The translations under genes were made by a program, and so were the position numbers. Positions 1-63,402 of a stretch of DNA of 64,000 nucleotides are shown in pieces (the first letter of the stretch is position 1; every line of letters starts with the position of its first letter). Under the pieces are notes generated by a model. That model ran no database searches, was not told the DNA's origin, and worked only from the letters and a program-made list of their open reading frames with translations. The DNA is from Arachis hypogaea (taxonomy: Eukaryota; Streptophyta; Magnoliopsida; Fabales; Fabaceae), in the NCBI RefSeq assembly GCF_003086295.3, contig NC_092053.1, positions 86,241,671-86,305,670 on the forward strand. Reading direction: 5' to 3'.

Positions 1-2
1 TT

Positions 3-1172
3 CCATCATCAACTCAGCAACAGACAGAGAACTCTGAACAAAATGCTTCTAATTTAGCAAATCTAGTCTCTGATCTATCTAAGGCCACTGTAAGTTTCAT
101 GAATGAAACAAGGTCTTCCATTAGAAATTTGGAAGCACAAGTGGGCCAGCTGAGTAAAAGGATCACTGAAATCCCTCCTAGTACTCTCCCAAGCAATACA
201 GAAGAGAACCCAAAAGGAGAGTGCAAGGCCATTGACATAAGCGCCATGGCCGAACCTGTGAGGAGAGGAGAGGACGTGAATCCCAAGGAGGAAGACCTCC
301 TGGGACGTCCAGTGATCAATAAGGAGCTTCCCTCTGAGAAACCAAAGGAATCTGAGACTCATCTAGAGACCATAGAGATTCCATTGAACCTCCTTATGCC
401 CTTCATGAGCTCTGATGAGTATTCCTCTTCTGAAGAGAATGAGGATGTCACTGAAGAGCAAACTGCCAAGTTTCTTGGTGCAATCATGAAGCTAAATGAC
501 AAATTATTTGGCATTGATGCTTGGGAAGTTGAACCTCCCTTGTTCATCAATGAACTAAGTGATCTAGATCAACTGACATTGCCTCAGAAGAGACAGGATC
601 CTGGAAAGTTCATAATCCCTTGTACCATAGGCACCATGATCTTTAAGGCTCTGTGTGACCTTGGTTCAGGAATAAACCTCATGCCCCTCTCTGTCATAGA
701 GAAACTGGGAATCTATGGGGTGCAAGCTGCTAAAATCTCACTAGAGATGGCAGACAGCTCAAGAAAACAGGCTTATGGACAAGTAGAAGATGTATTAGTA
801 AAGGTTGAGGGCCTTTACATACCTACTGATTTCATAGTCCTGGATACTGGAAAGAAAGAGGATGAATCCATCATCCTAGGAAGACCTTTCCTGGCCACAG
901 CAAGAGCTGTGATTGATGTTGACAGAGGTGAAATAGTCCTTCAATGGAATGAGAACTCCCTTGTATTCAAAACTCAAGGATCTCCCTCTGCAACCATGGG
1001 GAGGAAGCAGGAAAAGCTTCTCTCCAAGCAGAGTCAACCAGAGCCCTCACAGTCAAACTCTAAGTTTGGTGTTGGGAGGCCACAACCAAACTCTAAGTTT
1101 GGTGTTGAACTCCCATATCCAAACTCTAAGTTTGGTGTTGGAGAGTCTCAACAAAGCTCTGCACATCTGTGA
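3..1172 (+). CDS. R1 gag (C-terminal part) fused to aspartic protease
   Basis: The frame is open from the window edge; codon 99 is only the first internal ATG. The first part is polar, Gag C-terminal sequence that aligns by eye with the R6 Gag at 47161-48117. The retroviral-type aspartic protease follows, with active-site motif CDLGSGINLMP at 654-686 (most relatives here have DLGA or DLGAC) and the conserved ILGRPFLATARAVID near 877-921. No CCHC zinc knuckle is visible. After the protease the frame enters a Gln/Ser/Pro-rich tail with three 33-bp repeats encoding NSKFGV, then stops at 1170-1172. RT and integrase are absent. No premature stop is present, so this copy could still make a Gag-Pro protein; that is inference. 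Confidence 0.85.
   Translation, partial: PSSTQQQTENSEQNASNLANLVSDLSKATVSFMNETRSSIRNLEAQVGQLSKRITEIPPSTLPSNTEENPKGECKAIDISAMAEPVRRGEDVNPKEEDLLGRPVINKELPSEKPKESETHLETIEIPLNLLMPFMSSDEYSSSEENEDVTEEQTAKFLGAIMKLNDKLFGIDAWEVEPPLFINELSDLDQLTLPQKRQDPGKFIIPCTIGTMIFKALCDLGSGINLMPLSVIEKLGIYGVQAAKISLEMADSSRKQAYGQVEDVLVKVEGLYIPTDFIVLDTGKKEDESIILGRPFLATARAVIDVDRGEIVLQWNENSLVFKTQGSPSATMGRKQEKLLSKQSQPEPSQSNSKFGVGRPQPNSKFGVELPYPNSKFGVGESQQSSAHL
1056..1140 (+). repeat. Three coding copies of the AACTCTAAGTTTGGTGTTG word (33-bp period)
   Basis: Copies start at 1056, 1088 and 1121 and are read as N-S-K-F-G-V. The same word without coding function lies next to the 3' LTR and in other non-coding positions. R2 (20064-20160) and R6 (46258-46355, reverse strand) carry the same triplicate at the end of their main ORF. 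Confidence 0.9.
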
Positions 1173-1191
1173 GGCTCCATGAGAGCCCACT

Positions 1192-1240
1192 GTCAAGCTA
1201 TTGACATTAAAGAAGCGCTTGTTGGGAGGCAACCCAATGT
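1192..1240 (+). promoter_or_regulatory. Conserved post-stop block with GCGCTTGTTGGGAGGCAACC
   Basis: It starts 20 bp after the main ORF stop. It contains GTCAAGCTA, GACATTAAAGAAGCGCTT and the inverted repeat TTGGG/CCCAA around AGGCAA. Nearly the same block follows the main ORF in R2, R3 and R6. Function is unknown: RNA structure, splice acceptor region or translation element are all possible. Confidence 0.6.
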
Positions 1241-1373
1241 TTATCTAATTCTTATTTTTTGTTTTTCATATTTTCTTAGGTTCATGATCATGTGGAGTCA
1301 CAAAATAAATATAAAAATTGAAAACAGAATCAAAAACAGCAGAAGAAAAATCACACCCTGGAGGAGCATCTGT

Positions 1374-1545
1374 CTGGCGTTCAGCGCCAGAACAGAGCAT
1401 GGTTCTGGCGCTGAACGCCCAAAATGGGCATCTTCTGGGCGCTGAACGCCAGAACAGGCATGGTTCTGGCGTTCAACGCCAGAAATGGCACACAGATGGG
1501 CGTTGAACGCCCAAAATGGCCACCAACCTGGCGCTGAACGCCCAG
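1374..1545. repeat. Palindromic word array TGGCGTTNAACGCCA (R1 pol-ORF2 spacer)
   Basis: About six imperfect copies of a 15-17 bp palindrome such as CTGGCGTTCAACGCCAG and GGGCGTTGAACGCCC, separated by 15-20 bp of A-rich spacer (for example AAATGGCACACAGAT). Each copy can fold as a hairpin on either strand. The same word occurs in the R1 LTR (4756-4864). Confidence 0.9.
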
Positions 1546-1606
1546 AGTTGGATACAAAGGCATTTTTACATGCCTAATGGGTGCAGGGATGTAAATCCTT
1601 GAACAC

Positions 1607-1693
1607 CTCAGGATCTGTGGACCCCACAGGATCCACTCAGGATCTGTGGACCCCACAGGATCCACTCAGGATCTGTGGACCCCACAGGATCCC
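1607..1693. repeat. 29-bp tandem repeat, three copies
   Basis: The unit begins CTCAGGATCTGTGGACCCCA and ends with GGATCCA; copies start at 1607, 1636 and 1665. R2 has one copy near 20632-20658 and R6 has about one and a half on the reverse strand near 45699-45756, so copy number varies within the family. Confidence 0.9.
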
Positions 1694-1894
1694 CACCTAC
1701 CTCCACTCACTTCTTCTCACCACTCTCTTTTACACAACCCCATAAACACTCTTCCCTAAAAACCCCTCACCAATCACCTCAATCTCTCTTCCCCATAAAC
1801 CTACCTCATAAACTCCACCTACCTTCAAAATTCAAAACCAATTTCCCACCCAAACCCACCCATATGGCCGAAACTTAACCCCCCCTCCCTTCCC

Positions 1895-1903
1895 TATATA
1901 AAG
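1895..1903 (+). promoter_or_regulatory. Internal TATA box upstream of R1 ORF2
   Basis: TATATAAAG in a C-rich leader, 191 bp before the ORF2 ATG. R6 has the same box in the same place (45449-45459, reverse strand). A C/T-rich stretch typical of plant 5' leaders follows. It suggests a separate ORF2 transcript; transcription itself is not shown. Confidence 0.55.
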
Positions 1904-2020
1904 ACCTCCATTCTTCATCAAATTCACACAACACACCCCTCTACACTCTCCTTAGCCGAAACCACATCTCCCTCTCCCTCTCCATATTTCTTCTTCTTCT
2001 TCTTCTATTTCTTTTGTTTA

Positions 2021-2057
2021 TTGCTCGAGGGCGAACAATATTCTAAGTTTGGTGTGG
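2021..2057 (+). promoter_or_regulatory. R1 internal hairpin-PPT cassette
   Basis: Hairpin TTGCTCG-AGGG-CGAACAA (one mismatch), then TTCTAAGTTTGGTGTGG. It lies between the internal TATA box and the ORF2 ATG. Same layout as the cassette next to the 3' LTR (4343-4380). Confidence 0.6.
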
Positions 2058-2093
2058 TAAAAGCATAAGCTTTTTGTTTTTCCATTACCATTG

Positions 2094-3242
2094 ATGGCAT
2101 CTAAGACCGGAGAATCCTCTAGAAGAGGGAAAGGGAAGATAAAAGCTTCCACATCTGAGTCATGGGAGATGGAAAGGTTCATCTCCAAAGCCCATCAAGA
2201 CCACTTCTATGATGTTGTGGCCAAGAAGAAGGTGATCCCTGAGGTCCCTTTTGAACTCAAAAGAAATGAGTATCCGGAGATCCGACATGATATTCAAAGA
2301 AGAGGTTGGGAAGTTCTAACAAATCCCATCCAACAAGTCGGCATCCTAATGGTTCAAGAATTCTATGCCAATGCATGGATCACCAAGAACCATGATCAAA
2401 GTAAGAACCCGGATCCAAAGAACTATGTTACAATGGTTCGGGGGAAATACTTAGATTTTAGTCCGGAGAATGTGAGGTTGGCGTTTAACTTGCCATACAT
2501 GGAAGAGAACGCACGCCCCTACACAAGGAGAGTCAACTTTGATCAAAGGTTGGACCAAGTCCTTATGGACATATGTGTAGAAGGAGCTCAATGGAAGATT
2601 GACTCCAAAGGCAAGCCGGTTCAACTAAGAAGATTGGACCTCAAGCCTATAGCTAGAGGATGGTTGGAGTTCATTCAATGCTCAATCATTCCCACTAGCA
2701 ACCGGTCTGAAGTTACTATAGACCGGGCCATCATGATCCATAGCATCATGATTGGAGAAGAGGTGGAAGTTCATGAGATTATACCTCAAGAACTCTACAA
2801 GGTGGCTGACAAATCCTCCACTATGGCAAGGTTAGCCTTTCCTCACCTCATCTGCCACCTATGCAATTCAGCTGGGATTGACATAGATGGAGATATCCTC
2901 ATCAAAGAGGACAAGCCCATCACTAAGAAAAAGATGGAGCAAACAAGAGAGCCCACTCATGGAGCTCAAGAGGCGCAAGAAGCTCATCACCATGAGATTC
3001 CGGAAATGCCTCAAATGCACTTTCCTCCACAAAATTATTGGGAGCAAATCAACACCTCCCTAGAAGAATTGAGTTCCAATATGGGACAACTAAGGGTGGA
3101 ACATCAAGAGCACTTGATCATGCTGCATGAAATAAGAGAAGATCAAAAGGCAATAAGGGTGGAGCAACAAAGACAAGGAAGAGACATAGAAGAGCTCAAG
3201 GACATCATTGGTTCCTCAAGAAGGAAACGCCACCATCACTAA
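2094..3242 (+). CDS. R1 ORF2: plant retrotransposon-associated protein after pol
   Basis: Intact frame of about 382 residues. ATG 2094 is chosen; the TTG just upstream is not needed. The N-terminus is Lys/Ser-rich (GKGKIK). A central conserved region includes YPEIRHDIQRRGW, LMVQEFYANAW, FSPENVRLAFNLP and WLEFIQ, which I recognise as the 'putative plant transposon protein' family found in Athila-like elements. Residues about 310-370 are Glu/Gln/Arg-rich and look like a coiled coil; the end is basic, RRKRHHH. No signal peptide or transmembrane segment is visible, so it does not look like a viral envelope protein despite its env-like position. R6 has a broken copy and R2 only the last 38 codons. 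Role unknown; RNA or Gag binding would be a guess. Confidence 0.8.
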   Translation: MASKTGESSRRGKGKIKASTSESWEMERFISKAHQDHFYDVVAKKKVIPEVPFELKRNEYPEIRHDIQRRGWEVLTNPIQQVGILMVQEFYANAWITKNHDQSKNPDPKNYVTMVRGKYLDFSPENVRLAFNLPYMEENARPYTRRVNFDQRLDQVLMDICVEGAQWKIDSKGKPVQLRRLDLKPIARGWLEFIQCSIIPTSNRSEVTIDRAIMIHSIMIGEEVEVHEIIPQELYKVADKSSTMARLAFPHLICHLCNSAGIDIDGDILIKEDKPITKKKMEQTREPTHGAQEAQEAHHHEIPEMPQMHFPPQNYWEQINTSLEELSSNMGQLRVEHQEHLIMLHEIREDQKAIRVEQQRQGRDIEELKDIIGSSRRKRHHH

Positions 3243-4342
3243 GGTGGAGTCATTCCTTGTTCTTGCTTTCTCTGTTTTTCGTTTTCTATGTTATGTGCTT
3301 AGCTATGTTTGTGTCTTCATTACATGATCATTAGTAGTTAGTAACTTTGTCTTAAAGATATGAATGTCCTATGAATCCATCACCTCTCTTAAAAAAAATG
3401 TTTTAATTCAAAAGAACAAGAAGTACATGAGTTTCGAATTTATCCTTGAACTTAGCTTAATTATATTGATGTGGTGACAACGCTTCTTGTTTTCCGAATG
3501 TATGCTTGAACAGTGCATATGTCTTTTGAAGTTGTTGTTTAAGAATGTTAAATATGTTGGCTCTTGAAAGAATGATGACTAGGAGACATGTTATTCGATA
3601 ATCTGAAAAATCATAAAAATGATTCTTGAAGCAAGAAAAAGCAGCAAAGAACAAAGCTTGCAAAAAAAAAAAAAAAAGAAAAAAAAAGGGGCGAAAATAG
3701 AAAAAAAAATCATAAAAATAGAAAGAAAAAGAAAAAGCAAGCAGAAAAAGCCAATAACCCTTAAAACCAAAAGGCAAGGGCAAATAAAAAGGATCCCAAG
3801 GCTTTGAGCATCAGTGGATAGGAGGGCCTAAAGGAATAACATCCTGGTCTAAGCGGCTAAACCAAGCTGTCCCTAACCATGTGCTTGTGGCGTGTAGGTG
3901 TCAAGTGAAAACTTGAGACTGAGCGGTTAAAGTCAAGGTCCAAAGCAAAAGAAGAGTGTGCTTAAGAACCCTGGACACCTCTAATTGGGGACTTTAGCAA
4001 AGCTGAGTCACAATCTGAAAAGGTTCACCCAATTATGTGTCTGTGGCATTTATGTATCCGGTGGTAAATACTGGAAAACAAAGTGCTTAGGGCCACGGCC
4101 AAGACTCATAAAGAAGCTGTATTCAAGAATCATCATACTGAACTAGGAGAGTCAATAACACTATTCGAAATCTGAAGTTCCTATAGATGCCAATCATTCT
4201 AAATTTCAATGGATAAAGTGAGATGCCAAAACTATTCAAGAGGCAAAAAGCTATAAGTCCCGCTCATATGATTGAAACTATGTTTCATTGATAGTTTGGA
4301 ATTTATAGTATATTCTCTTCTTTTTATCCTATTTGATTTTCA
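3243..4342 (+). other. R1 3' untranslated region
   Basis: No gene seen. It holds an A-rich run (about 3661-3730), then a region with two related segments around GTGCTTGTGGCGT (3891) and GTGTCTGTGGCAT (4038). Conserved almost base for base in R2 (20950-22049) and R6 (42996-44104). Confidence 0.7.
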
Positions 4343-4380
4343 GTTGCTTGGGGACAAGCAACAATTTAAGTTTGGTGTTG
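4343..4380 (+). promoter_or_regulatory. R1 terminal hairpin-PPT cassette
   Basis: Perfect hairpin GTTGCTTG-GGGA-CAAGCAAC (4343-4362), then AATTTAAGTTTGGTGTTG ending exactly at the LTR. Position fits the plus-strand primer (polypurine tract), although the word is only G-rich with several T residues. Confidence 0.7.
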
Positions 4381-4755
4381 TGATGAGCGGATAATTTATA
4401 CGCTTTTTGGCATTGTTTTTAATATATTTTTAGTAGGATCTAGTTACTTTTAGGGATGTTTTCATTAGTTTTTATGTTAAATTCACATTTCTGGACTTTA
4501 CTATGAGTTTGTGTGTTTTTCTGTGATTTCAGGTATTTTCTGGCTGAAATTGAGGGACTTGAGCAGAAATCAGATTCAGAGGTTGAAAAAGGACTGCTGA
4601 TGCTGTTGGATTCTGAACTCCCTGCACTCAAAGTAGATTTTCTGGAGCTACAAAACTCAAAATGGCGCGCTTTCAATTGCGTTGGAAAGTAGACATCCAG
4701 GGCTTTCCAGCAATATATAATAGTCCATACTTTGGCCAAGAATTGACGATGTAAA

Positions 4756-4864
4756 CTGGCGTTCAACGCCAGCCTTCTGCCCAAATCTGGCGTCCAGCGC
4801 CAGAAAAGGATCCAAAATCAGAGTTGAACGCCCAAACTGGCACAGAAACTGGCGTTCAACTCCA
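4756..4864. repeat. Palindromic word array TGGCGTTNAACGCCA in R1 LTR
   Basis: Copies include CTGGCGTTCAACGCCAG, CTGGCGTCCAGCGCCAG, GAGTTGAACGCCC and CTGGCGTTCAACTCC. Same word as in the R1 spacer, about 100 bp upstream of the TATA box. Confidence 0.85.
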
Positions 4865-4980
4865 CAAATGGCCTCTGCACGTGCAACACTCAGACTCAGC
4901 CCAAACACACACCAAGTGGGCCCAGGAAGTGGATTTAGGCATCAAATACTTACTCATGTAAACCCTAGTAGCTAGTTTAT

Positions 4981-4988
4981 TATAAATA
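4981..4988 (+). promoter_or_regulatory. TATA box of R1 LTR
   Basis: TATAAATA in GTTTATTATAAATAGGACC, a typical plant TATA context. The R6 LTR has it too (42350-42357, reverse strand). Confidence 0.55.
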
Positions 4989-6051
4989 GGACCCTTTACT
5001 AGTCTCTTTGAAAATCTTTGGTCTCAGTTTTATTCCATTAGTCATCTTAGGAGACTATTGATCTCGTCTAGGGGGCTGGCCATCTCGGCCATGCCTGGAC
5101 CTTCACTTATGTATTTTCAACGGTAGAGTTTCTACACTCCATAGATTAAGGTGTGGAGCTCTGCTGTTCCTCAAAGATTAATGCAAAGTACTACTATTTT
5201 CTATTCAATTCTTCTTATTTCTCTTCTAAGATATCTATTCGCACCCAAGAACGTGATGAAGGTGATGATTATGTGTGACGCTCATCACCATTCTCCCCTA
5301 TGAACGCGTGCCTGACAAACACTTCTGTTCTACATGAATTAAGCTAGAATGAGTATCTCTTAGATCTCCTAACCAGAATCTTCGTGGCGTAAGCTAGAAT
5401 GATGGCGGCATTCAAGAGAATCTGGAAGGTCTAAACCTGTCTGTGGTATTCTGAGTAGGATTCAATGATTGAATGACTGTGACGAGCTTCAAACTCGCGA
5501 GTGCTGGGCGTTAGTGACAGACGCAAAAGGAGGGTGAATCCTATTCCAGCATGATCGAGAACCGACAGATGAATAGCCGTGCCGTGACAGGGTGCGTGAG
5601 CATATGATTCACTGAGAGGAGGGGATGTAGCCACTGACAACGGTGATGCCCTTGCATACAGCCAGCCATGGAAAGGAGTAAGACTGATTGGATGAAGATA
5701 GCAGGAAAGCAGAGGTTCAGAGGAACGAAAAGCATCTCCATTCGCTTATCTGAAATCCCTGCCAATGAATCTACATAAGTATCTCTATCCCTTTTATTGT
5801 TTATTTTAATCTAATAAAGTATCATGTTTAAATCCGCCTGACTGAGATTTACAAGGTGACCATAGCTTGCTTCAAGCCAACAATCTCTGTGGGATCGACC
5901 CTTACTCACGTAAGGTTTATTACTTGGACGACCCAGTACACTTGCTGGTTAGTTGAACGGAGTTGTGTCCACACATAGTAAAGAGCCATAATAATGATTC
6001 CATACAATAACAAAGAGTACTACATTAATGTGATCATAATTTCGTGCACCA

Positions 6052-7032: not shown

Positions 7033-7842
7033 ATTATTTGAGTTTGAACAACTGACGGTGAATCCTGTTGCTTAGATTAGGAAAATTTTGTCTTTTGGGT
7101 CAGAGTCTTTTATATTCTTTTCAAAAAAAAAAATAATAAAAAAAATAAAAATAAAAAAATATTTTTTCTTAGTTATTAAAAATATTTTTCAAAACAAGTG
7201 TTACATTTACTGCCCATTTGGCTAGAGCGTTGGTCTGTGTTCTTGGTAAATTGGGTACCTTCTTTTTAAAATTATTTTTCAAAAATAATTTTTACATTAA
7301 ATCTTGTGCCAAACTTTAAGTTTGGTGTTTTCTTGTTGATTTTTCTTTGGTTTTGGAAAAATCTTATTTTGGTTTTCTAAAAATTTTAAGTTTGGTGTTC
7401 TTTCTTCATGTTCTTGTGTTCTTGTGAATCTTCAAAGTGTTCTTGAGTTTTCCTTGTGTCTTGATCTTAAAATTTTTAAGTTTGGTATTCCTTGGTGTTT
7501 TCCCTCCAAAATTTTTGAAAACAAGGAGCATTAGATCTAAAAATTTTAAATCTTGTGCTATCTTATTATTTTTCTCTCTCCTCTTTAAATTCAAAAATAT
7601 CTTTTCTCCCTATTTTAAAGCAAATTTTCGAAATTTACCTTTAAAATTCAGATTTTTATTTCAAAATTTAAAACCTTTTTCAAAAATCATCATATCCTTT
7701 TCAAAACTTCCTAACCACTTTCTCTCTCCTCATTTTTTTCGAAAATCTTCACCCATTTTTATTTATTTTATTTTTGAAATAAATAAATAAATAAATAAAT
7801 AAATAAAAATAATTTTTTTTACATCATCTCCCTTTCTCCATC
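7033..7842 (+). other. R2 leader between PBS and gag
   Basis: AT-rich and non-coding. It holds three copies of TTTAAGTTTGGTGTT-like words (7316, 7386, 7477) and an AAAT run (7777-7808) just before the gag ATG. The related R8 leader keeps the word copies. Short ORFs here have no family features. Confidence 0.7.
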
Positions 7843-10669: not shown

Positions 10670-10936
10670 TGATGCCAGGGCATTTTGGCCAGTTTCATTG
10701 ACCTTTTCTTTACTATTTTTAAGGTAGTTTCATGCATTTTCTTAGGAAATAAGCTAGTTTTGGGTAGATATTCACTTACATCTTGATTCAAGCAAACATT
10801 GTGCACTTTACATGATTTCATGAGAATTTTGCATGAATTATATAATAAATTGGATGATGCATGATCCCATGATTAAGAGCAAGACTTTGATGTACTTTGT
10901 TTGATTGATTTCAGGCCAAAAGAAGAAGAGAAGAAG

Positions 10937-11520
10937 CCACGTTAGTGGCTACGTTAGTTACACTAATGTGGGCACTAACGTGGAAGGAAGGAAAGCCCCA
11001 ACGTTAGTGAGAAAAGTTCGTGGCATTAACTTTGAAGAAAGAGAATTTGAGCCAACGTTAGTGACACTTAACATTATCACTAACGTTGGCCAATGCTCAC
11101 AAGTGGCCACGTTAGAGTCCACGTTAACTTAGTTAACGTGGCCTCTAACGTTAAAAGGGGGAAAGGAAGCAAACGTTAGTGACATTCAACATTGTCACTA
11201 ACGTTGGCCTAAGTGCACAATGCCACGTTAACTCCCACGTTAACTTGGTTAACGTGGAAGCTAACGTGAAGAGGCAAGAGTGGTCGACAACGTTAGTGAC
11301 ACTCAACATTGTCACTAACGTTGGAAGCAACCACATATCCCAAGAAGCCATGTTAACTCCCACGTTAACCTAGTTAACGTGGAAGTTAACGTGAAGAAGA
11401 AGAAGTTGTTGACAACGTTAGTGACACCAAAAATTGTCACTAACGTTGCCAACACAAGCCACAAAGAGCCACGTTAACTCCCACGTTAACTTAGTTAACG
11501 TGGTAGTTAACGTGGGCAAA
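10937..11520. repeat. Palindromic modules AACGTTAGTGACA/TGTCACTAACGTT in R3 5' LTR
   Basis: Two hairpin types alternate. One has 13-bp arms AACGTTAGTGACA and TGTCACTAACGTT with a short loop; the other is CACGTTAAC-NNN-GTTAACGTG. The first type starts at 11054, 11172, 11289 and 11414, giving a higher-order period of about 117-125 bp. Arms are kept while loops and linkers vary. Confidence 0.9.
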
Positions 11521-11559
11521 AGTCCCACCTGGCAGCTTGACCCTGCCTTCTTCAAACAA

Positions 11560-12056
11560 GAATAACTTGAACCACAAAACTCCAAATGAAGTGCTTCCAG
11601 TGGCATTGGAAAGTAGGATTCCAGATCTTTCCAAGCATATATGGCACTACATGGTTGACACTAAATTTGAGGGAGAAAACCTGCCCCGAAGGTGCAATGA
11701 TGAACATGATATCAGCCTGTATTTTGGCCAACTGACCTCTTCACCTTCCAAGAAGTATAACTCGAATTGTAGAGCTCCAAATGATGCGCTTCCAAAAGCA
11801 TTGGAAAGTAGACATCCAGGGCTTTCCAACAATATATAATAGTATGGGGTGGACACGAAGTTTGAGCTTCAGAAACATGAAAATCGCTGGCGTTATTGGC
11901 AATCAACATTTCCAGTAATGTTGGCATATATGCCAGCGACCATGTCCACTTCAGAGGAGCATAACTTGAGTTACAGAGGTCCAATTGAGGTGATTCCAGT
12001 TGCGTTAGAAAGCTGACATTCAGAGATTTCCAACGATATATAATACTCTATGGTGG
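11560..12056 (+). repeat. Three copies of the shared LTR module in R3 5' LTR
   Basis: Copies at about 11560-11662, 11750-11843 and 11958-12056. Each runs ATAACTTGAG...CCAAATGA...GGAAAGTAG/CTGACATTC...CTTTCCAA...ATATATAATA. The same module occurs in LTRs of R1, R2, R6, R8 and R9. Confidence 0.75.
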
Positions 12057-12358
12057 GCATGAAATTAAAGCACAAACAAGAGGCATCTTTTAAGCCCCAA
12101 AAACACCAACTGGGTAGCAAGTGCAACGTTAGCCACAATAACTTTAGCACTAACGCCACACTTGTAGCGTTTGTTTGGCTAACTTTGGCACTAACTTTAG
12201 CACCTAGACCTCAACTTGACTCACTTCTCTCTCAAGTCCACTTCAAAGCTCAAGCAAGCAAGCCCACAATTGTCAACCAATCAAGGCCACAAGAAGCATC
12301 TAGAATATGAATTTTCATTTAATTGTAATTTGCTTTCATTTTGTAATTTAGGAGAGCC

Positions 12359-12367
12359 TATATAAAG
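12359..12367 (+). promoter_or_regulatory. TATA box of R3 5' LTR
   Basis: TATATAAAG in GAGCCTATATAAAGGCC; repeated in the 3' LTR at 18008-18016. Best candidate promoter of R3. Confidence 0.65.
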
Positions 12368-13362
12368 GCCTTAGTTTTTACATTGAAATCATCTTAGGCT
12401 ATACTGGGGAACTCTGGAGAATTTGGGAATTAGGGGATTAAAGAGGGGTCTTCGGACTCCCTTCCCTCACCGACTTTTCCTTTTCTTTCTTTGTACTTTT
12501 CATTTATGAATTTTGAAGTTTTATTTTTAGTTTTTATCTTCATCTTTATTTTTCTGCACTTTCTTTCTTTTCTATTTTTGTAGAGCAATGATCAACTAAC
12601 TCTTTACATTGGGTTAGAGAGCTCAATTGTGATTCAATGGATCAATTGTAGTTCTTATTCTTCTTCTCCTTTCTTTTCTCTTGATTTTACTTGAAAGCTT
12701 TCGGTCTTCATCCAATTGGGTAGTTATCTTGGAAAAGGAGCTATTCAGACTTGGATCTCTTTTGAACCTTGAAAGAGGAATGAAGAGATCAAGCTAGAAA
12801 TGCTTTCTCATGCTGGACCAAATTGGGTTTGGATGGATATGTGACTATAATCGTCTCAATACCTGGTTTGGGAAATGCATGTGGTATAATCAGTGACCAC
12901 ACTTCATCTCTTCTCATGAGCAATTGACCAAGGAATTGGCTATTGATCAAGATTTGAGAGATTGAATTGCAAGAAATTGTAATTCGATCAATTAAGATTG
13001 CCAAGGAGATCAATGAGTGCATTGATTGAGGAAGAGATGAGAATGAACTTGATCCGGAGGATTGCAATATCTCTTGATCCCAATGTTCATTTTATTTTTA
13101 GTTCTTACATTTACTTTTCTTGCCATTTTACTTTTCTGCACTTTATTGCTTTCTTTACTTTTCTGTCAATTTACATTTCCTTGTTACTTATCACTCCATT
13201 ATGATTCGTCTAACTAGGATAATCAATTAACCATTGATTGCTTAATCCGTTAATCTCTGTGGGATTCGACCTCACTCTATTGTGAGTTTTACTTGACGAC
13301 AATTCGGTATACTTGCCGAAGGGAGATTTGTTGAGAGACAAGTTTTTCGTGCATCAAGTTTA

Positions 13363-13379
13363 TGGCGCCGTTGCCGGGG
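13363..13379 (+). promoter_or_regulatory. R3 primer binding site, tRNA-Asp
   Basis: TGGCGCCGTTGCCGGGG, an exact tRNA-Asp 3'-end complement, six bases after the LTR end. Confidence 0.92.
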
Positions 13380-13526
13380 ATTAATCGTGATTAACAAACT
13401 ACCAGTTGATTGATTTACTAGATTAGACACTTTTCTTTTGTCTTTATTTTCTTTTGCTTCTTTATTTTCTTTTGCTAACCAACTGTTTGTGATATTGCCT
13501 CACTGGGAATTTCCTCATCTGTGACA

Positions 13527-14597
13527 ATGGAGATTCCAATTTCTTTTGGTGATTATTGTTTGAGACAGAGCTTTCTGCAGGAAAGAAAGGAGCATCCATC
13601 ATATTTTAGTCAATCAAATTTCATGGGAAACTCTCCACCACCACAGAATGATTCACTTTACTATGCTCATGGTGGGTGGGAGTATCAAGAACATGAAATG
13701 GGGTACTTTCCAGAGCCACAGAATGGTCCATATCTTGGTGAAATTGATCACTACTCAAGTTGTGGCTGGGAAGATCATAATCAAAGAGATTTCACTCATT
13801 CATACCCCATTCATCAAGAGCCATCACCTCTCAATTATACAACCTCACCTCCAAGTTTCACATGCCTAAATCCTTCATCATTTGAGTATGCCTCAGCACA
13901 AAAGTCTATCCAAAATCCATACAATTCATTTCACCATCCACAAAACTCAACCCACTACCCACAAGAGTCATACCACTTTCAGAACACACAACCACAAAAC
14001 AACCAATTCCATTCACAAACCAACCCCGCCCAACCATTACAACCTACCCAACCACCTTTAGATAGACTTGCTAGGATGGAACTCTTCATGGAAGAGCTCA
14101 AAAGAAGTAGAGAAGAAGAGAGACTCACTAGGATAGAACTCCTCCTTGAAGAAATAATAAAGACAAATGAAGAGGAGAAAATAGCAAGAAGGGACCATGA
14201 AGAAAACTTGAGATAGAATGCACAACTCTATTCTGAAGAACAATTCATTGAAGAGCTGAGAGCACGAAGAGAGACCACTTCACTCTCTCCAGAAACAGAG
14301 GAGTTCATTCAAAGGTCAAGAACAAATGAGGAAGTCAATCAAGGGAGCCCATACTCCAATGAAACAGAGAGTTGCATAGAAGGTGAGTTCATTGAACCAC
14401 CAATTCAAGAAATTCTTGATGAAGATGATGCTCCACCCATCACACAATACCCAAGTCCTGAAATCAAGGTGGTAAAGGCAAGCAACATGAACACTAACAA
14501 AAGGATGGTGAACAAGAAAAGAAGGACAATATTCATGAAGAAGAAAAGGTCAACCAAAAGCCATCCCACCCCTACCCCAACAAGCAAGTTTACTTAA
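13527..14597 (+). pseudogene. R3 sole ORF: Pro/Gln/His-rich gag-like protein with one stop
   Basis: ATG 13527. The frame is open to 14597 except for TAG at 14214-14216, so about 230 codons before and 126 after. The first half is rich in Tyr, His, Pro, Gln and Asn (for example WEYQEHEMGYF, SYPIHQEPSPLNY). The second half has repeated RMELFMEELKRSREEERLTR-like segments, likely coiled coil, and ends with a Lys/Arg-rich stretch (KKRRTIFMKKKRS). There is no Gag core, zinc knuckle or protease motif. I do not recognise the family. Position after the PBS and the basic tail suggest a structural or RNA-binding role; that is inference. Confidence 0.65.
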
Positions 14598-14725
14598 GCT
14601 AACAACAGAAGAAGGCTTGCTGGGGAGAGGCACTCAAAACAAGGGGCATTAACTGGCTCCTCTTTCCTCTTGAGGTCATTCCTCTTAACAAACTGGAAGA
14701 AGAGGAAGAAAGTCGTGAACAACAT

Positions 14726-14770
14726 GTCAAGCTAATGACATTAAAAGAGCGCTTGTTGGGAGGCAACCCA
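14726..14770 (+). promoter_or_regulatory. Conserved post-stop block in R3
   Basis: GTCAAGCTAATGACATTAAA, then GAGCGCTTGTTGGGAGGCAA. It is kept although R3 has lost all pol genes, so it is unlikely to be part of a pol protein. Confidence 0.65.
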
Positions 14771-15113
14771 ACCGTAGGTAACATTTCCTTGCTTTGCTTA
14801 GTTTACTTTCAATAATTTGGCATATGATTGCACTCTAAGTTTGGTGTTGCCATGCAACAATTTGATTTTCAATCTTCACTGGGTACTTGCAACATTCTAA
14901 ATTGACAGTGGCACACTAAGTTTGGTGTTGCCACTTAACTTTCATGCAAAGTACCATGCCAACACCACTCATTAATGCAATCACATTGTCTCTGTTTTAC
15001 TTCTTGTGCTTTTGTTGTATCCTTAACCTTGCTTGCTGAAACACATGCATACTCACACTTCATTCTAAGACATTCATGATCCATCATGAACCCCGTCACC
15101 ACTGTTTTAATTG

Positions 15114-15152
15114 TTGCTTAAGTATAAGCAATCATTCTATGTCTGGTGTGGG
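15114..15152 (+). promoter_or_regulatory. R3 internal hairpin-PPT cassette
   Basis: Perfect hairpin TTGCTTA-AGTA-TAAGCAA followed by TTCTATGTCTGGTGTGGG. Corresponds to the internal cassettes of R1, R2 and R6. Confidence 0.6.
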
Positions 15153-16268
15153 AAGGGGAAGAATAGGAGGAAAAGGGCAACAATGATGAAGATAAGATAT
15201 AAGGTGGTAAAGTTCCTTTCTCCTCTTACTTATTTCCAGCACTTTAATTTGCATGATTGTCTTCTATGTTCTTTGTATGTATGTGTGCTTTCTCCTTGAG
15301 AATAAGCATGTCAATTCTGTCTTTGAAACTTTTTATTGATTAAGGCTGTGTTTTCTAGCCTGAATGTCATTACTGCATCCTTACTTTGCTTACTAGTATG
15401 CTTGTCCCTTTGAATCAAATGAAAAGAGAATGAGAGTTTTTAAAGACCAGAGAGGAGTTCATACTATGGAGTAAGTTCATGAGTTTGTGGTATGATCATA
15501 AGTTAGCTAAGTTGGTTCAACCACAAGGTGGGAAGACAACTATCTGTCCTGAATCATATGCTTGAAACACACCCCATGAAACTAGCTAAATAATAAGATC
15601 CTAATAAGAAAAAGGGAAAGAACAATGAAAGTGAAAAAAAAAATAAAAGAAAAAGAGTAAGCAATAAGGCTAGGCACCAATGATTTTAATCTTGAGGCAA
15701 GTGTCTGTGGTGCTCCTGTGTGAGGGATCTACTTGGATGAATAAGCTCTTAGGGGTGCCTTATCACTTGGTAACTTGGGTTAACTAACCCGGGATTATCA
15801 GCTGAAAGTCCACTATCAAGAGTAACCCTCACTACAGAGCATTTAGTAACCCAAAGAGGTGCTGGACACCAAGGTCTCAAGAAAGAAAACAAATAAACTA
15901 TGTGCCTGTGGTGTGTATGTATGGGGGAGAGACTTGAGCAAGTAAGTCCTTAGGGGTGCTTCAACACCTAGCACCTTGAACCAACTGGTTCGGGAGTGTT
16001 GGCTGAAAGCTTATTTTAAAGAGTTGCCCCCTTACAGAGCACTTAGCTTAAGAACAAAAATAAGCCCTAAAATGACAACAAAAGGATCAATGAATAAAAG
16101 TCTCATGGGATGCAATCACAGTGAGTATTCTAGGACATGATAAAGGTCTGAAAGCTAGGAATGAACCTAAGTTGCTATGCACGAAACCACCATAAAACCA
16201 GGGACATGACTTCCACAAGAATGACTCATTTCTCTTGGCATTCCATTCATCATTCTCTTGTTCCAGTA

Positions 16269-16305
16269 CTTGCTTAGGGACAAGCAAGCTTTAAGTTTGG
16301 TGTTG
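16269..16305 (+). promoter_or_regulatory. R3 terminal hairpin-PPT cassette
   Basis: Hairpin CTTGCTT-AGGGAC-AAGCAAG, then CTTTAAGTTTGGTGTTG ending at the 3' LTR; same layout as R1, R2 and R6. Confidence 0.7.
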
Positions 16306-19005
16306 TGATGCCAGGGCATTTTGGCCAGTTTCATTGACCTTTTCTTTACTGTTTTTAAGGTAGTTACATGCATTTTCTTAGGAAATAAGCTAGTTTTGGG
16401 TAGATATTCACTTACATCTTGATTTAAGCAAACATTGTGCACTTTACATGATTTCATGAGAATTTTGCATGAATTATATAATAAATTGGATGATGCATGA
16501 TCCCATGATTAAGAGCAAGACTTTGATGTACTTTATTTGATTAATTTCAGGCCAAAAGAAGAAGAGAAGAAGCCATGTTAGTGGCTACGTTAGTTACACT
16601 AATGTGGGCACTAACGTGGAAGGAAGGAAAGCCCTAACGTTAGTGAGAAAAGTTAGTGGCATTAACTTTGAAGAAAGAGAATTTGAGCCAACGTTAGTGA
16701 CACTTAACATTATCACTAATGTTGGCCAATGCTCACAAGTGGCCACGTTAGAGTCCACGTTAACTTAGTTAACGTGGCCTCTAACGTTAAAAGGGGGAAA
16801 GGAAGCAAACGTTAGTGACATTCAATATTGTCACTAAGGTTGGCCTAAGTGCACAATGCCACGTTAACTCCCACGTTAACTTGGTTAACATGGAAGCTAA
16901 CGTGAAGAGGCAAGAGTGGTCGACAACGTTAGTGACACCCAATATTGTCACTAACGTTGGAAGCAACCACATATCCCCAAGAAGCCACGTTAACTCCCAC
17001 GTTAACCTAGTTAACTCCCACGTTAACGTGGAAGTTAACTTGAAGAAGAAGAAGTTGTCGACAACGTTAGTGACACCAAACATTGTCACTAACGTTGCCA
17101 ACACAAGCCACAAAGAGCCACGTTAACTCCCACGTTAACTTAGTTAACGTGGTAGTTAACGTGGGCAAAAGTCCCACCTGGCAGCTTGACCATGCCTTCT
17201 TCAAACAAAAATAACTTGAGCCACAAAACTCCAAATGAGGTGATTCCAGTGGAATTGGAAAGTAGGATTCCAGATCTTTCCAAGCATATATGGCACTACA
17301 TGGTTGACACTAAATTTGAGGGAGAAAACCTGCCCCGAAAGTGCAATGATGAACATGGTATCAGCCTGTATTTTGGCCAACTGACCTCTTCACATTCCAA
17401 GAAGTATAACTCGAGTTGTAGAGCTTCAAATGATGCGCTTCCAAAAGCATTGGAAAGTAGACATCCAGGGCTTTTCAACAATATATAATAGTATGGGGTG
17501 GACACTAAGTTTGAGCTTCAGAAACATGAAAATTGCTGGCGTTATTGGCAATCAACATTTCCAGTAATGTTGGCATATATGCCAGCGACCATGTCCACTT
17601 CAAAGGAGCATAACTTGAGTTACAGAGGTCCAATTGTGGTGATTCCAGTTGCGTTAGAAAGCTGACATTCAGAGCTTTCCAACGATATATAATAATCTAT
17701 AGTGGGTATGAAATTGGAGCACAAACAAGAGGCATCTTTTAAGCCCCAAAAGTACCAACTGGGCAGCAAGTGCAACGTTAGCCACAATAACTTTAGCACT
17801 AACGCCACACTTGTAGCGTTAGTTTGGCTAACTTTGGCACTAACTTTAGCACCTAGACCTCAACTTGACTCACTTCTCTCTCAAGTCCACTTCAAAGCTC
17901 AAGCAAGCAAGCCCACAATTGTCAACCAATCAAGGCCACAAGAAGCATCTAGAATAGGAATTTTCATTTAATTGTAATTTGCTTTCATTTTGTAATTTAG
18001 GAGAGCCTATATAAAGGCCTTAGTTTTTACATTGAAATCATCTTAGGCTATACTGGGGAACTCTGGAGAATTTGGGAATTAGGGGATTGAAGAGGGGTCT
18101 TCGGACTCCCTCCCCTCACCGACTTTTCCTTTTCTTTCTTTGTACTTTTCATTTATGAATTTTGAAGTTTTATTTTTAGTTTTTATCTTCATCTTTATTT
18201 TTCTGCACTTTCTTTCTTTTCTATTTTTGTAGAGCAATGATCAACTAACTCTTTACATTGGGTTAGAGAGCTCTATTGTGATTCAATGGATCAATTGTAG
18301 TTCTTATTCTTCTTCACCTTTCTTTTCTCTTGATTTTACTTGAAAGCTTTTGGTCTTCATCCAATTGGGTAGTTATCTTGGAAAAGGAGCTATTCAGACT
18401 TGGATCTCTTTTGAACCTTGAAAGAGGAATGAAGAGATCAAGCTAGAAATGCTTTCTCATGCTGGACCAAATTGGGTTTGGATGGATATGTGACTATAAT
18501 CCTCTCAATACCTGGTTTGGGAAATGCATGTGGTATAATCAGTGACCACACTTCATCTCTTCTGATGAGCAATTGACCAAGGAATTGGCTATTGATCAAG
18601 ATTTGAGAGATTGAATTGCAAGAAATTGTAATTCGATCAATTAAGATTGCCAAGGAGATCAATGAGTGCATTGATTGAGGAAGAGATGAGAATGAACTTG
18701 ATCCGGAGGATTGCAATATCTCTTGATCCCAATGTTCATTTTATTTTTAGTTCTTACATTTACTTTTCTTGCCATTTTACTTTTCTGCACTTTATTGCTT
18801 TCTTTACTTTTCTGTCAATTTATATTTCCTTGTTACTTATCACTCCATTATGATTCGTCTAACTAGGATAATCAATTAACCATTGATTGCTTAATCCGTT
18901 AATCTCTGTGGGATTCGACCTCACTCTATTGTGAGTTTTACTTGACGACAATTCGGTATACTTGCCGAAGGGAGATTTGTTGAGAGACAAGTTTTCCGTG
19001 CATCA
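16306..19005 (+). repeat. R3 3' LTR (2,700 bp)
   Basis: Second copy of 10670-13356 with the same ends. It includes palindrome modules (about 16580-17170), three shared modules (about 17210-17705) and a TATA box (18008-18016). One extra GTTAACTCCCACGTTAAC unit near 17000-17030 makes it longer than the 5' copy. Confidence 0.93.
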
Positions 19006-19010: not shown

Positions 19011-20182
19011 CTACAACCTTTCAGAGGTGCATGCTCTCTATCTTCTCTGATATGGTAGAGAAGTTTCTAGAAGTCTTCATGGATGACTTTTTAGTATTTG
19101 GAGACTCATTCAGCTCCTGCCTTAACCATTTAGCACTTGTTCTGAAAAGATGCCAAGAGACCAACCTAGTTTTAAACTGGGAAAAATGTCACTTTATGGT
19201 GACTGAAGGGATTGTCCTTGGGCATAAAATTTCAAACAAGGGAATAGAGGTGGATCAAGGTAAAGTTAAAGTAATTGAAAAATTACCACCACCGTTCAAT
19301 GTTAAGGCAATCAGAAGCTTTCTAGGGCATGCAGGATTCTATAGGAGGTTTATAAAAGATTTTTCAAAAATTGCAAAACCTCTGAGCAATCTGCTAGCTG
19401 CTGACATGCCATTTGTGTTTGACACAAAGTGTCTGCAGGCGTTTGAGACCCTGAAAGCTAAGCTGGTCACAGCACCAGTTATTTCTGCACCAGACTGGAC
19501 ATTACCATTCGAACTAATGTGTGATGCCAGTGACCATACCATTGGTGCAGTATTAGGACAGAGGCATAACAAGATTCTGCATGTCATTTATTATGCTAGC
19601 AGTGTTTTAAATGATGCCCAGAAAAATTACACAACCACAGAAAAAAAATTACTTGCAGTGGTTTATGCCATTGACAAGTTTAGATCCTACTTAGTAGGAT
19701 CAAAAGTAATTGTGTACACTGACCATGCTGCTCTTAAATATCTACTCACAAAGCAGGATTCAAAGCCCAGGCTCATAAGATGGGTGTTGCTTCTGCAAGA
19801 GTTTGATATAGAAATAAGAGACAGAAAAGGGACAGAGAATCAAGTAGCTGATCACCTGTCCCGGATAGAACTAGTAGCAGGAGCATCCCTCCCTCCTACT
19901 GAGATCTTTGAAACCTTTCCGGATGAGCAATTGTTTGCTATTCAGGAAGCTCTGTGGTTTACAGACATTGCAAACTATAAGACACAAGGTTCTCCTTCTG
20001 TAACCATGGAGAGGAAGAATGAAAAGCTTTTCTCACTACAGAGTCAACCAAAGCCCCCACAGTCAAACTCTAAGTTTGGTGTTGGGAGGCCACAACCAAA
20101 CTCTAAGTTTGGTGTTGAACCCCCACATTCAAACTCTAAGTTTGGTGTTGGGAGGTCCCAACCTTGCTCTGATTATCTGTGA
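19011..20182 (+). pseudogene. R2 RT (C-terminal part) and RNase H, ending in the NSKFGV tail
   Basis: Continuation of the R2 pol frame after R3. The RT catalytic motif [10 protein letters not shown] is intact (near 19078), followed by [17 protein letters not shown]. RNase H shows [38 protein letters not shown] and NQVADHLSR, so all expected acidic residues are seen. After LWFTDIANY, where relatives continue into the integrase zinc domain, the frame passes directly into [13 protein letters not shown] and three NSKFGV repeats, then stops at 20180-20182. Integrase is absent. This half has no internal stop; the gene is broken by upstream stops and by R3. An ATG at 18962 belongs to LTR sequence. 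Confidence 0.9.
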
Positions 20183-20752: not shown

Positions 20753-20791
20753 TTTGCTCGAGGACGAGCAAACCTTCTAAGTTTGGTGTGG
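20753..20791 (+). promoter_or_regulatory. R2 internal hairpin-PPT cassette
   Basis: Perfect hairpin TTTGCTCG-AGGA-CGAGCAAA, then CCTTCTAAGTTTGGTGTGG. It is kept although the ORF2 it precedes is deleted. Confidence 0.65.
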
Positions 20792-22049: not shown

Positions 22050-22087
22050 GTTGCTTGGGGACAAGCAACAATTTAAGTTTGGTGTTG
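22050..22087 (+). promoter_or_regulatory. R2 terminal hairpin-PPT cassette
   Basis: Perfect hairpin GTTGCTTG-GGGA-CAAGCAAC, then AATTTAAGTTTGGTGTTG up to the LTR. Confidence 0.7.
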
Positions 22088-28716: not shown

Positions 28717-28755
28717 ACCTCCCCACACTTAAACATTAGCATGTCCTCATGCTAA
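28717..28755 (-). promoter_or_regulatory. R5 terminal hairpin-PPT cassette
   Basis: Read on the minus strand: perfect hairpin TTAGCATG-AGGA-CATGCTAA, then TGTTTAAGTGTGGGGAGGT touching the LTR. The purine-rich end is a convincing polypurine tract. Confidence 0.85.
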
Positions 28756-30146: not shown

Positions 30147-30184
30147 ACCTCCCCACACTTAAGGCTTTGCACCGTCCTCGGTGC
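30147..30184 (-). promoter_or_regulatory. R5 internal hairpin-PPT cassette, overlapping the ORF2 end
   Basis: Minus strand: perfect hairpin GCACCG-AGGA-CGGTGC inside the last ORF2 codons (TEDGA), then CTTAAGTGTGGGGAGGT. A second full PPT-like tract 1.4 kb upstream of the terminal one. Confidence 0.75.
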
Positions 30185-42957: not shown

Positions 42958-42995
42958 CAACACCAAACTTAAATTGTTGCTTGTCCCCAAGCAAC
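42958..42995 (-). promoter_or_regulatory. R6 terminal hairpin-PPT cassette
   Basis: Minus strand: perfect hairpin GTTGCTTG-GGGA-CAAGCAAC, then AATTTAAGTTTGGTGTTG up to the LTR. Confidence 0.7.
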
Positions 42996-45253: not shown

Positions 45254-45309
45254 TCAATGGTAATGGAAAAACAAAAAGCTTATGCTTTTACCATACCAAA
45301 CTTAGAATA

Positions 45310-45327
45310 TTGCTCGCCCTCGAGCAA
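45310..45327 (-). promoter_or_regulatory. R6 internal hairpin (cassette)
   Basis: Minus strand: perfect TTGCTCG-AGGG-CGAGCAA, followed by TTCTAAGTTTGGTATGG at about 45290-45306. Confidence 0.6.
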
Positions 45328-49283: not shown

Positions 49284-49321
49284 ACCTCCCCACACTTAAA
49301 GCTTCGCACCGTCCTCGGTAC
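49284..49321 (-). promoter_or_regulatory. R7 internal hairpin-PPT cassette
   Basis: Minus strand: GTACCG-AGGA-CGGTGC (one mismatch), then CTTTAAGTGTGGGGAGGT. Confidence 0.65.
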
Positions 49322-57553: not shown

Positions 57554-58646
57554 ATTGTTCGTGTTTGAACAACTGACGGTTCATCTTGTTACTTAGATTA
57601 GGAAAATTTTGTCTTTGGGTCAGAGTCTTTTATTTTCGTTTCAAAAATTTTTCAAAAAATTTATTATTTGTCGTTATTAATCTTTAGAGTTTTTCTGTTT
57701 GAGTTTAGTTTTATATTTTAAGTTTGGTGTCAATTGTATGTTTTTATTCTCCCTTAAATTTTCGAATTTGTGTTGATTGTTCTTTCTTGATCTTCAAGTT
57801 GTTCTTGCTAATTATCTTGTTTGATCTTTAGTTTTTTCCTGTCATGTGTCTTTTCTCGGTTTTCTTGTGCGTTTTCAACTTATCAGTTTTCAAAAAAAAT
57901 TTATACATTAAATACCTTTATTAAAACACTTTAAATTTATAGCTCAATTGGCTAGAGCAGTGTGCTTATGTTCTTGGTAATTGGGAATTTTCCTTTTAAA
58001 ACTTTTTCAAAAATAATTTTTCTTTGATTAAATCTCATTTCAAACTTTTAAGTTTGGTGTTCGCTTGTTAATTTTTTATTTTCGAAAAATTATTTTTAGT
58101 TTTCTAAAAGTTTTAAGTTTGGTGTTCTTTTTATGTTCTTGTGAGTCTTCAAAGTGTTCTTAAGTCTTCTTAGTGTTTCGATCTTAAAATCTTTAAGTTT
58201 GGTGTTCCTTGGTGTTTTCCCTCCAAAACTTTCGAAAAGCAAGGAGCATTAGATTTAAAAATTTTAAGTCTTGTGTCATCTTATTGTTTTTCTCTTTCCT
58301 CATTAAATTCAAAAATATCTTTTCTCTTTAATTTAAATTGAATTTTCGAAAATTTCTTTTAAAAATTCAGACTTTTATTTTAAAAATCAAATCTTTTCAA
58401 AATTCAAAATCTTTTTCAAAAATCATATCCAAAGTTTTTCAAATTTTCTCAATTAAGTAATTATTTTCACTTTCAAAATTATTTTTTCTCTAAGTTTTTG
58501 AAATTTACATTTTAATATCTCATTATTTTATTTTATTTTATCTTATTATTTTTATTTATCTTAATAATTTGGTTTGTTCTACTTCAATAAAATAAAAACA
58601 AAAATATATTTTCTTTGCAATTCATATCAACTTTATTTTATCCATC
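57554..58646 (+). other. R8 leader
   Basis: T-rich, no gene. TTTAAGTTTGGTGTT-like words near 57718, 58049, 58112 and 58193. Confidence 0.7.
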
Positions 58647-61931: not shown

Positions 61932-61970
61932 ACCTCCCCACACTTAAACATTAGCATGTCCTCATGCTAA
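61932..61970 (-). promoter_or_regulatory. R9 terminal hairpin-PPT cassette
   Basis: Minus strand: perfect hairpin TTAGCATG-AGGA-CATGCTAA, then TGTTTAAGTGTGGGGAGGT at the LTR. Confidence 0.85.
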
Positions 61971-63253: not shown

Positions 63254-63290
63254 ACCTCCCCACACTTAAAGATTGCACCGTCCTCGGTGC
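63254..63290 (-). promoter_or_regulatory. R9 internal hairpin-PPT cassette
   Basis: Minus strand: perfect hairpin GCACCG-AGGA-CGGTGC, then CTTTAAGTGTGGGGAGGT. Kept despite the deletion of ORF2. Confidence 0.75.
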
Positions 63291-63402
63291 ATGCTGAGAT
63301 GTGCAGGTGGACGGGTTGTGGTTCCTCAGCTGAGACTCTTTTTGTTCCTTTCCTTGCCGGTGTTTTGGGAGCAGCTTTCTCTTTACCCTTCTTGGTGGCC
63401 AT
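63274..63402 (-). pseudogene. R9 ORF2 with the middle deleted
   Basis: ATG at 63400-63402; MATKKGKEKAAPKTPARKG as in R5. After about 30 codons it jumps to the last codons (CTEDGA), losing more than 1 kb, and one base fewer at the end removes the usual stop. Confidence 0.75.

Follow-up and report, generated by a model that had tools for sequence, protein, structure and literature searches.

Athila4 of Arabidopsis and Calypso of soybean, both env-bearing Ty3/gypsy retrotransposons, carry an extra polypurine tract (PPT) in the linker between pol and the 3' long terminal repeat (LTR) (Wright & Voytas 2002, as cited in PMC2829016; published papers are cited here from excerpts, to which all statements drawn from them are limited). 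Sireviruses likewise display repeated PPT-like words in their linker, together with an inverted repeat at the PPT that is thought to aid primer formation; their PPT, AGGGGGAG, lies at the loop edge of this repeat, which extends into the LTR, and their upstream PPTs are devoid of it (PMC2829016). In Ty1 and HIV-1, an extra functional PPT copy located inside the element, in the coding region, was experimentally tested and acts as a second start of plus-strand DNA (PMC2829016). The window analyzed here is a stretch of 64,000 nucleotides from Arachis hypogaea (contig NC_092053.1, positions 86,241,671 to 86,305,670), composed of nested LTR retrotransposons labeled R1 to R9; ORF stands below for open reading frame. 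Elements of the same lineage as Athila4 and Calypso carry in this window a cassette made of a hairpin, a spacer of 4-8 nt and a primer-like word, generally present twice. On balance, each cassette is more probably than otherwise a plus-strand priming module of these Athila/Calypso-type elements, the action of the hairpin and the internal start being the parts that we infer.

The sequence-only reading of the window had placed such cassettes at 13 sites spread over seven elements, and all 13 were recovered at those sites (the coordinates are those of the window, and minus-strand hairpins and words are given in their reading direction):

2021..2057, plus strand: R1 internal cassette; hairpin 2021-2038 (one C·A mismatch), word AAGTTTGGTGTGG 2045-2057.
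4343..4380, plus strand: R1 terminal cassette; hairpin 4343-4362, word 4368-4380; 3' LTR from 4381.
15114..15151, plus strand: R3 internal cassette; hairpin 15114-15131, word variant ATGTCTGGTGTGG 15139-15151.
16269..16305, plus strand: R3 terminal cassette; hairpin 16269-16288 (A·C at the loop), word 16293-16305; 3' LTR from 16306.
20753..20791, plus strand: R2 internal cassette; hairpin 20753-20772, word 20779-20791; of the env-like ORF present downstream in R1, most is missing.
22050..22087, plus strand: R2 terminal cassette; hairpin 22050-22069, word 22075-22087; 3' LTR from 22088.
30148..30184, minus strand: R5 internal cassette; hairpin 30184-30169, word 30160-30148; overlaps the last codons and the stop of a broken env-like ORF.
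28718..28755, minus strand: R5 terminal cassette; hairpin 28755-28736, word 28730-28718; 3' LTR from 28716 (target-site duplication GTAAG).
45291..45327, minus strand: R6 internal cassette; hairpin 45327-45310, word AAGTTTGGTATGG 45303-45291.
42958..42995, minus strand: R6 terminal cassette; hairpin 42995-42976, word 42970-42958.
49285..49321, minus strand: R7 internal cassette; hairpin 49321-49306 (one T·G pair), word 49297-49285.
63255..63291, minus strand: R9 internal cassette; hairpin 63291-63274, word 63267-63255; env-like ORF mostly missing.
61933..61970, minus strand: R9 terminal cassette; hairpin 61970-61951, word 61945-61933.

The announced stems of 6-8 bp are perfect in 10 of the 13 cassettes and bear a single flaw in the other three (R1 internal, R7 internal and R3 terminal); the internal stem of R6, sister of that of R1, is intact. 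The loops are AGGA, GGGA, AGGG or AGTA. Perfect stems of at least 6 bp occur at such spacing at 2.0% of the window positions versus 11 of the 13 cassette sites. Two words are divided among the elements as had been claimed, one in R5, R7 and R9 and the other in the remaining elements, apart from the variants found in the internal cassettes of R3 and R6. The internal word was found to be a copy of the word present at the 3' PPT: the 13-mer is identical in R5 and R9, differs by one letter in R1 and R2, by two in R6 and by three in R3. The two copies of an element share one word type (TTTGGTGT or TGTGGGG) while their stems differ, as if one enzyme were reading the word and only the pairing of the stem mattered. 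Pyrimidines account for 72% of the 30 nt located 5' of the stem in 26 copies labeled terminal (one of which is really internal) and for 75% in 46 internal copies.

Conservation of the pairing was first evaluated on the window cassettes (13 rows, 10 of them distinct, 500 shuffles). Paired cells amount to 92.1% versus 63.7% in shuffles, and cells changed on both sides to 21 versus 7.0, neither value being reached in any of the 500 shuffles; shifting the partner by 1-3 columns reduces pairing to 21-47%. Two weaker measures are unremarkable, namely the pairs with a double change (7 versus 4.9; 32 of 500 shuffles as high) and the pair types (11 versus 9.2; 93 of 500). A larger test combined the window with loci L052-L119, retrieved from the 2.557 Gb genome that holds it and that served as search space for further copies, giving 103 rows (at least one place being present twice) and 47 distinct hairpins, compared with 1000 shuffles. 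In these 47 hairpins, 84.0% of the cells are paired versus 55.0% in shuffles (highest 60.9%, none of 1000 reaching the observed value), doubly changed cells number 110 versus 39.6 (highest 58) and extra Watson-Crick types 17 versus 10.6 (highest 15). Pairs showing a double change were non-discriminating in number (795 of 1000 shuffles as high). Stems of 7 bp with complete pairing were observed in nine different versions. The hairpin is real, the support for it as a structure is strong, and its pairing is retained while the letters change. The selection for structure suggested by the sequence-only reading is well supported by the pairing in the window and the genome and by the nine stems, within a comparison where the shuffles ignore relatedness and where 20 of the sampled segments were picked for carrying the common stem; strong covariation relative to shuffles was thus found in the large alignment, whose failure to covary had been named as grounds for abandoning the idea. 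That the cassette is merely an old sequence shared by descent, spread by copy number and devoid of present function, is hardly credible: the dominance of two stem versions among the genomic copies described below is what it would predict, but the nine different stems and the shuffles, in which kinship is ignored and which never reach the observed pairing, both oppose it. An outer helix joining the upstream pyrimidine tract to the word, hinted at by single folds, was rejected, as it was unsupported when compared with shuffled upstream sequence: its median rank was 114 of 200 for 27 rows labeled internal and 95 of 200 for 17 labeled terminal, a few rows being mislabeled or due to chance (7691 in L052 is terminal and 4065 in L066 is a chance match).

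At the scale of the genome, the stem class TTGCTYGAGGACRAGCAA is present in 39,021 exact copies, versus none for the reversed control. Its variable pair is C-G in 13,785 copies and T-A in 23,891 (by subtraction), so that 96.6% of the copies are Watson-Crick at this position. Among the first 100 places, 30 neighboring same-strand pairs lie within 3.5 kb of each other, versus one opposite-strand pair; 15 of the 30 display a C-G stem upstream of a T-A stem and none the reverse order. Twenty segments of 10 kb were fetched around such places (part of the L-numbered loci), partly chosen because the hit list showed a pair. Their internal stem is mostly TTTGCTYG/CRAGCAAA and their terminal stem GTTGCTTG/CAAGCAAC; the outermost pair therefore differs as well, T-A versus G-C. 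A second pattern, in which the loop, closing base, one letter set of the 3' arm, spacing and word were fixed, provided a sample not selected for pairing and matched 19,398 places (reversed control, 3). Short stretches were extracted at 60 of 100 listed places, the first 40 favoring unusual 3' arms, a choice that tends toward damaged copies. In these 40, pairs 1-7 are Watson-Crick in 40, 34, 30, 33, 38, 35 and 33 copies respectively and pair 8 is paired in 11 only, hence a stem of mostly 7 bp in this group; in the other 20, all seven inner pairs are formed in 17, T·G being counted. Viral contigs returned 42 pattern matches, none with such a hairpin, and the sole exact hairpin match had no word nearby; since hairpin and word never occur together, these matches are taken as chance. 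No encoded relative of the gag-pol piece was found in the viral contigs, and one pattern tried on prokaryote contigs gave no match.

One cassette of each pair had been said to touch the 3' LTR. The terminal word is indeed followed by the LTR directly, or after one T in the R5 group, and in R3 and R5 the LTR is proven by target-site duplications; with its word adjoining the 3' LTR in two such elements, the cassette sits where the PPT must be. From the sequence, the cassette is likely to be part of plus-strand priming. The module would open with a lead rich in pyrimidines, followed by a hairpin of 7-8 bp whose tetraloop consists of purines (AGGA in most cases), then by a short spacer and the primer word. 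Of its two copies, the one at the 3' LTR would be the PPT from which plus-strand DNA must start, and the internal one would correspond to the extra PPT known from both Athila4 and Calypso. The hairpin would act in the genomic RNA during minus-strand DNA synthesis by halting or positioning the reverse transcriptase (RT), whose RNase H would spare the word and cut at its 3' edge; the internal copy would then provide a second plus-strand start. This interpretation is based on the position of the cassettes, their double occurrence, the pairing kept with changed letters, the narrow spacing and the presence of both copies in elements without env or pol. The second priming site proposed beforehand accordingly agrees with the anatomy, given a terminal copy at a proven LTR and an extra PPT known in Athila4 and Calypso, the priming itself being the presumptive part. 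The distance between the cassettes, announced as 1-2.3 kb, was measured at 1.2-2.3 kb. The comparison that had been drawn with the central PPT of lentiviruses is loose, because the internal site lies at this distance from the 3' LTR and not at the center of the element; the extra PPTs of Ty1 and HIV-1 are located in coding regions, whereas the putative site lies 1.2-2.3 kb from the 3' LTR and is accompanied by a hairpin.

The spacing was examined on 28 distinct terminal copies, in 22 of which the stem reaches 6 bp or more. The base of the stem is separated from the LTR by 18 nt in 15 of these 22 and by 17-21 nt in all of them. In HIV RT, 18 bp of RNA/DNA hybrid lie between the polymerase and RNase H active sites (PMC3185654), a match that is suggestive only. 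It would be compatible with a hairpin-ruled primer, where the stem stalls the RT and the RNase H, trailing at a fixed length, cleaves the RNA where the word ends; we regard this version as rather unlikely. If true, the cut would be set by the distance from a structure and not by the purine tract, a GT-rich primer word would be possible and the device would be used twice per element. Pausing at the PPT was proposed in HIV as a means of letting RNase H cut the PPT-U3 junction (PMC3185654); stiff A-tracts would cause the pause in that model, whereas the hairpin located just upstream would do so here.

The internal hairpin starts about 73 nt upstream of an ORF in R1, L057, L058, L060, L064 and L066. 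The ORF belongs to PF20167 (Transposase_32) in R1, L064 and L066, and this domain is presumably the Athila env-like protein:

2091..3242, plus strand: R1 env-like ORF (PF20167, Transposase_32), starting about 35 nt past the internal word.

The internal cassette precedes the env-like ORF in R1 and R6 but is located within its last codons in R5 and R7, at the end of a stop-broken ORF whose pieces weakly match PF20167. In the AAGTGTGGGG group, the loop GAGGAC reads Glu-Asp and a stop follows within 12 codons in 28 of 44 distinct sites labeled internal (two of the 44, L084 and L109, look like damaged terminal copies) and in none of nine sites labeled terminal. This feature and the proximity of the R1-type cassette to the ORF would suit a hairpin of the 5' untranslated region controlling expression of the env-like mRNA, or mere coding constraint. 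Such an origin is nevertheless highly improbable. The same hairpin occupies non-coding sites by the LTR, and the residues around Glu-Asp mostly change with the pairing (T|EDG 14, I|EDD 9, T|EDR 5, the other 16 of 44 being mixed or damaged). Both cassettes are moreover retained in R2 and R9, where most of the env-like ORF is missing, in R3, which lacks gag-pol and env, and in L059 and L069, which encode RT, RNase H and integrase and have no ORF of at least 90 amino acids wholly between the cassettes. The internal cassette precedes the ORF in one group and coincides with its end in a second, and it occurs elsewhere without the ORF; it is therefore not only an env signal, and coding constraint or an env-leader role was rejected as sole cause given the env-less elements. 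The same distribution bears on a pause and template-switch site, where the internal hairpin would halt the RT and favor recombination swapping the env-like module. Such swaps have a precedent, as env modules moved between Arabidopsis Athila families (PMC2410132) and pausing raises strand transfer (PMC3185654); this role is nonetheless very unlikely, since the site lies on different sides of the module in the two groups, env-less elements keep it and the terminal copy is left unexplained.

Presence of the internal copy was verified in the 20 segments, where 19 of the 21 terminal cassettes with enough upstream sequence have an internal partner, some of them damaged, in segments partly chosen as pairs; two further terminals lie too close to a segment edge. 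The two cassettes without a partner belong to L053 and to the truncated copy L054. The outcome that would have contradicted the earlier proposal, a lack of the internal copy in most intact elements, was not observed. In the AAGTGTGGGG group, 14 of 40 places were taken blind to their 3' side: 8 of these 14 are followed by an LTR-adjoining word within 2.1 kb, with a stem of at least 6 bp in 6 of the 8.

A number of observations weigh against the priming module. The description of the words as polypurine or PPT-like holds for AAGTGTGGGGAGG, with 11 purines out of 13, and is loose for the AAGTTTGGTGTTG group, where just 7 of 13 positions are purines. Six of the 28 distinct terminal copies, that of R3 included, have damaged stems in the register used. 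Of the 10 cassettes folded (out of 13), 7 show the hairpin in their minimum-energy structure, with z values from +0.76 to -4.06. The active sites of the Ty3 RT, a nearer relative than that of HIV, are about 13 bp apart (PMC5371799), and a cut ruled by this distance would fall within the word. At the variable pair of TTGCTYGAGGACRAGCAA, copies with T·G (691) are no commoner than copies with C·A (654); the data are therefore silent on whether pairing is kept in RNA or in DNA. A DNA-level element, acting as a cruciform or palindromic site in the cDNA or chromosome, could be read from these equal counts, given that inverted repeats can pair in DNA as well. Decay after insertion would however equalize the counts too and mask any difference, the stem letters vary between families, unlike those of a protein-bound palindrome, and the cassette is strand-polar (lead, stem, word) and located where an RNA step occurs, which makes a DNA element quite improbable.

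The last observation of this kind concerns the word itself. In 264 kb, AAGTTTGGTGT occurs 104 times versus once for the reversed word; 44 copies belong to cassettes, 37 to an immediate CAAACT..AAGTTTG inverted repeat and 23 are found elsewhere. The 60 copies without this hairpin are distributed over the linker, the 5' leader and 11-codon repeats close to the end of the gag/protease or RT ORF, and the word may consequently have another job. A general RNA signal used twice or more (a putative site for Gag/nucleocapsid binding, packaging or dimerization, with the hairpin presenting a bound word) would account for these 60 copies, 37 of which lie in the inverted repeat, and for loops that are nearly always purine. 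It is an unlikely explanation of the cassette, as the hairpin is confined to two places in the elements examined, one of which is the PPT/LTR junction, a position unneeded for packaging. According to a suggestion of Havecker et al., reverse transcription involves the PPT-like repeats that env elements carry close to their 3' LTR (cited in PMC2829016).

With the plus-strand priming module retained as the favored interpretation, the extra PPT is already published and the covarying hairpin marking both PPTs apparently is not. No report of this hairpin was found in the literature searched, including by the letters of stem and word; Wright & Voytas 2002 and Havecker 2004 were outside that coverage and may mention it. 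The hairpin is not mentioned in the excerpts of PMC2829016 dealing with Athila4 and Calypso, whereas the extra copy described here has a covarying stem that is kept in env-less and pol-less elements. The arrangement also differs from that of Sireviruses: no AGGGGGAG octamer enclosed by an inverted repeat was found by the LTR, the words being AAGTTTGGTGTTG or AAGTGTGGGGAGG, the hairpin precedes the word entirely, and it accompanies the internal copy as well. PPTs display no common consensus (PMC3185511), and the choice of primer site by RTs is only partly understood. The repeat group described here is very abundant in this genome, and its covarying hairpin, narrowly spaced from each of two PPTs, would be a natural case where structure helps to set the primer. 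The cassette can also mark the inner boundary of the 3' LTR, and the word that it carries can be used to match non-autonomous elements with possible helpers.

The elements bearing these cassettes include the following:

1-5967, plus strand: R1, with gag/protease sequence and an env-like ORF (PF20167).
48117-41290, minus strand: R6, with gag/protease sequence and an env-like ORF (PF20167).
10670..19005, plus strand: R3, a non-autonomous LTR element with LTRs 97.5% alike, target-site duplication TGCAC and a primer-binding site; retains both cassettes.

R3 interrupts R2 (plus strand), and the 2.95 kb between its LTRs contain no Pfam-recognized ORF and no gag-pol or env homology. R5 (minus strand), to which R7 and R9 are related, has gag-pol as well as its two LTRs, and the 3' end of R7 was not located in the window. 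The duplications flanking R3 and R5 are both of 5 bp. PF20167 was matched by the env-like ORFs of R1, R6, L064 and L066 and, weakly and partially, by stop-free pieces of R5 and R7 (E values of 7e-05, 4e-07 and 1.7e-09, below the curated cut-off). Two characters of the Athila/Calypso/Diaspora group of Ty3/gypsy elements were found, namely a primer-binding site after the 5' LTR and an env-like third ORF after pol, absent in some members; RT evidence for the lineage consists of Pfam RT and RNase H matches only. In R2, R3, R5 and R8, the 5' LTR is followed by the primer-binding string TGGCGCCGTTGCCGGGGA, which we take to match tRNA-Asp, or by a close variant of it. Calypso and Diaspora have been described with a site complementary to tRNA-Asp about 5 nt past the 5' LTR (PMC1142308). 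Neither RT nor integrase was found in R1 and R6, which keep gag/protease and an env-like ORF and in this respect resemble the pol-less Athila elements of Arabidopsis (PMC2410132).

Additional features were observed around the cassettes. A TATA-like string, CTATATAAA, is present at 1894-1902, about 120 nt upstream of the R1 internal cassette, a position suggestive of a separate promoter for the env-like ORF, and a similar string exists in L064. The start of the R5 env-like ORF (about 31413, minus strand) is preceded by the splice-acceptor-like TTTCAG|GATGG, and splicing is possible. In the second group, a hairpin-less AAGTGTGGG(G/A) word lies about 590-640 nt downstream of the internal cassette (62626 in the window, L120:719, L123:713 and L128:714). 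Tandem 11-codon repeats near the end of the gag/protease or RT ORF, at 1062-1140, 20072-20150 and 46342-46264, encode (N)SKFGV with the letters of the PPT word and were also seen in L055, L057, L058, L060, L062, L063, L065 and L071. Between the primer-binding site and gag, AAGTTTGGTGT occurs in the 5' leader, always in sense orientation, as two exact copies and a variant in R2 (7318-7490) and as four copies in R8 (57720-58207). Lastly, the interior of the R3 LTR (11019-11515) contains direct and inverted repeats over a few hundred nucleotides.

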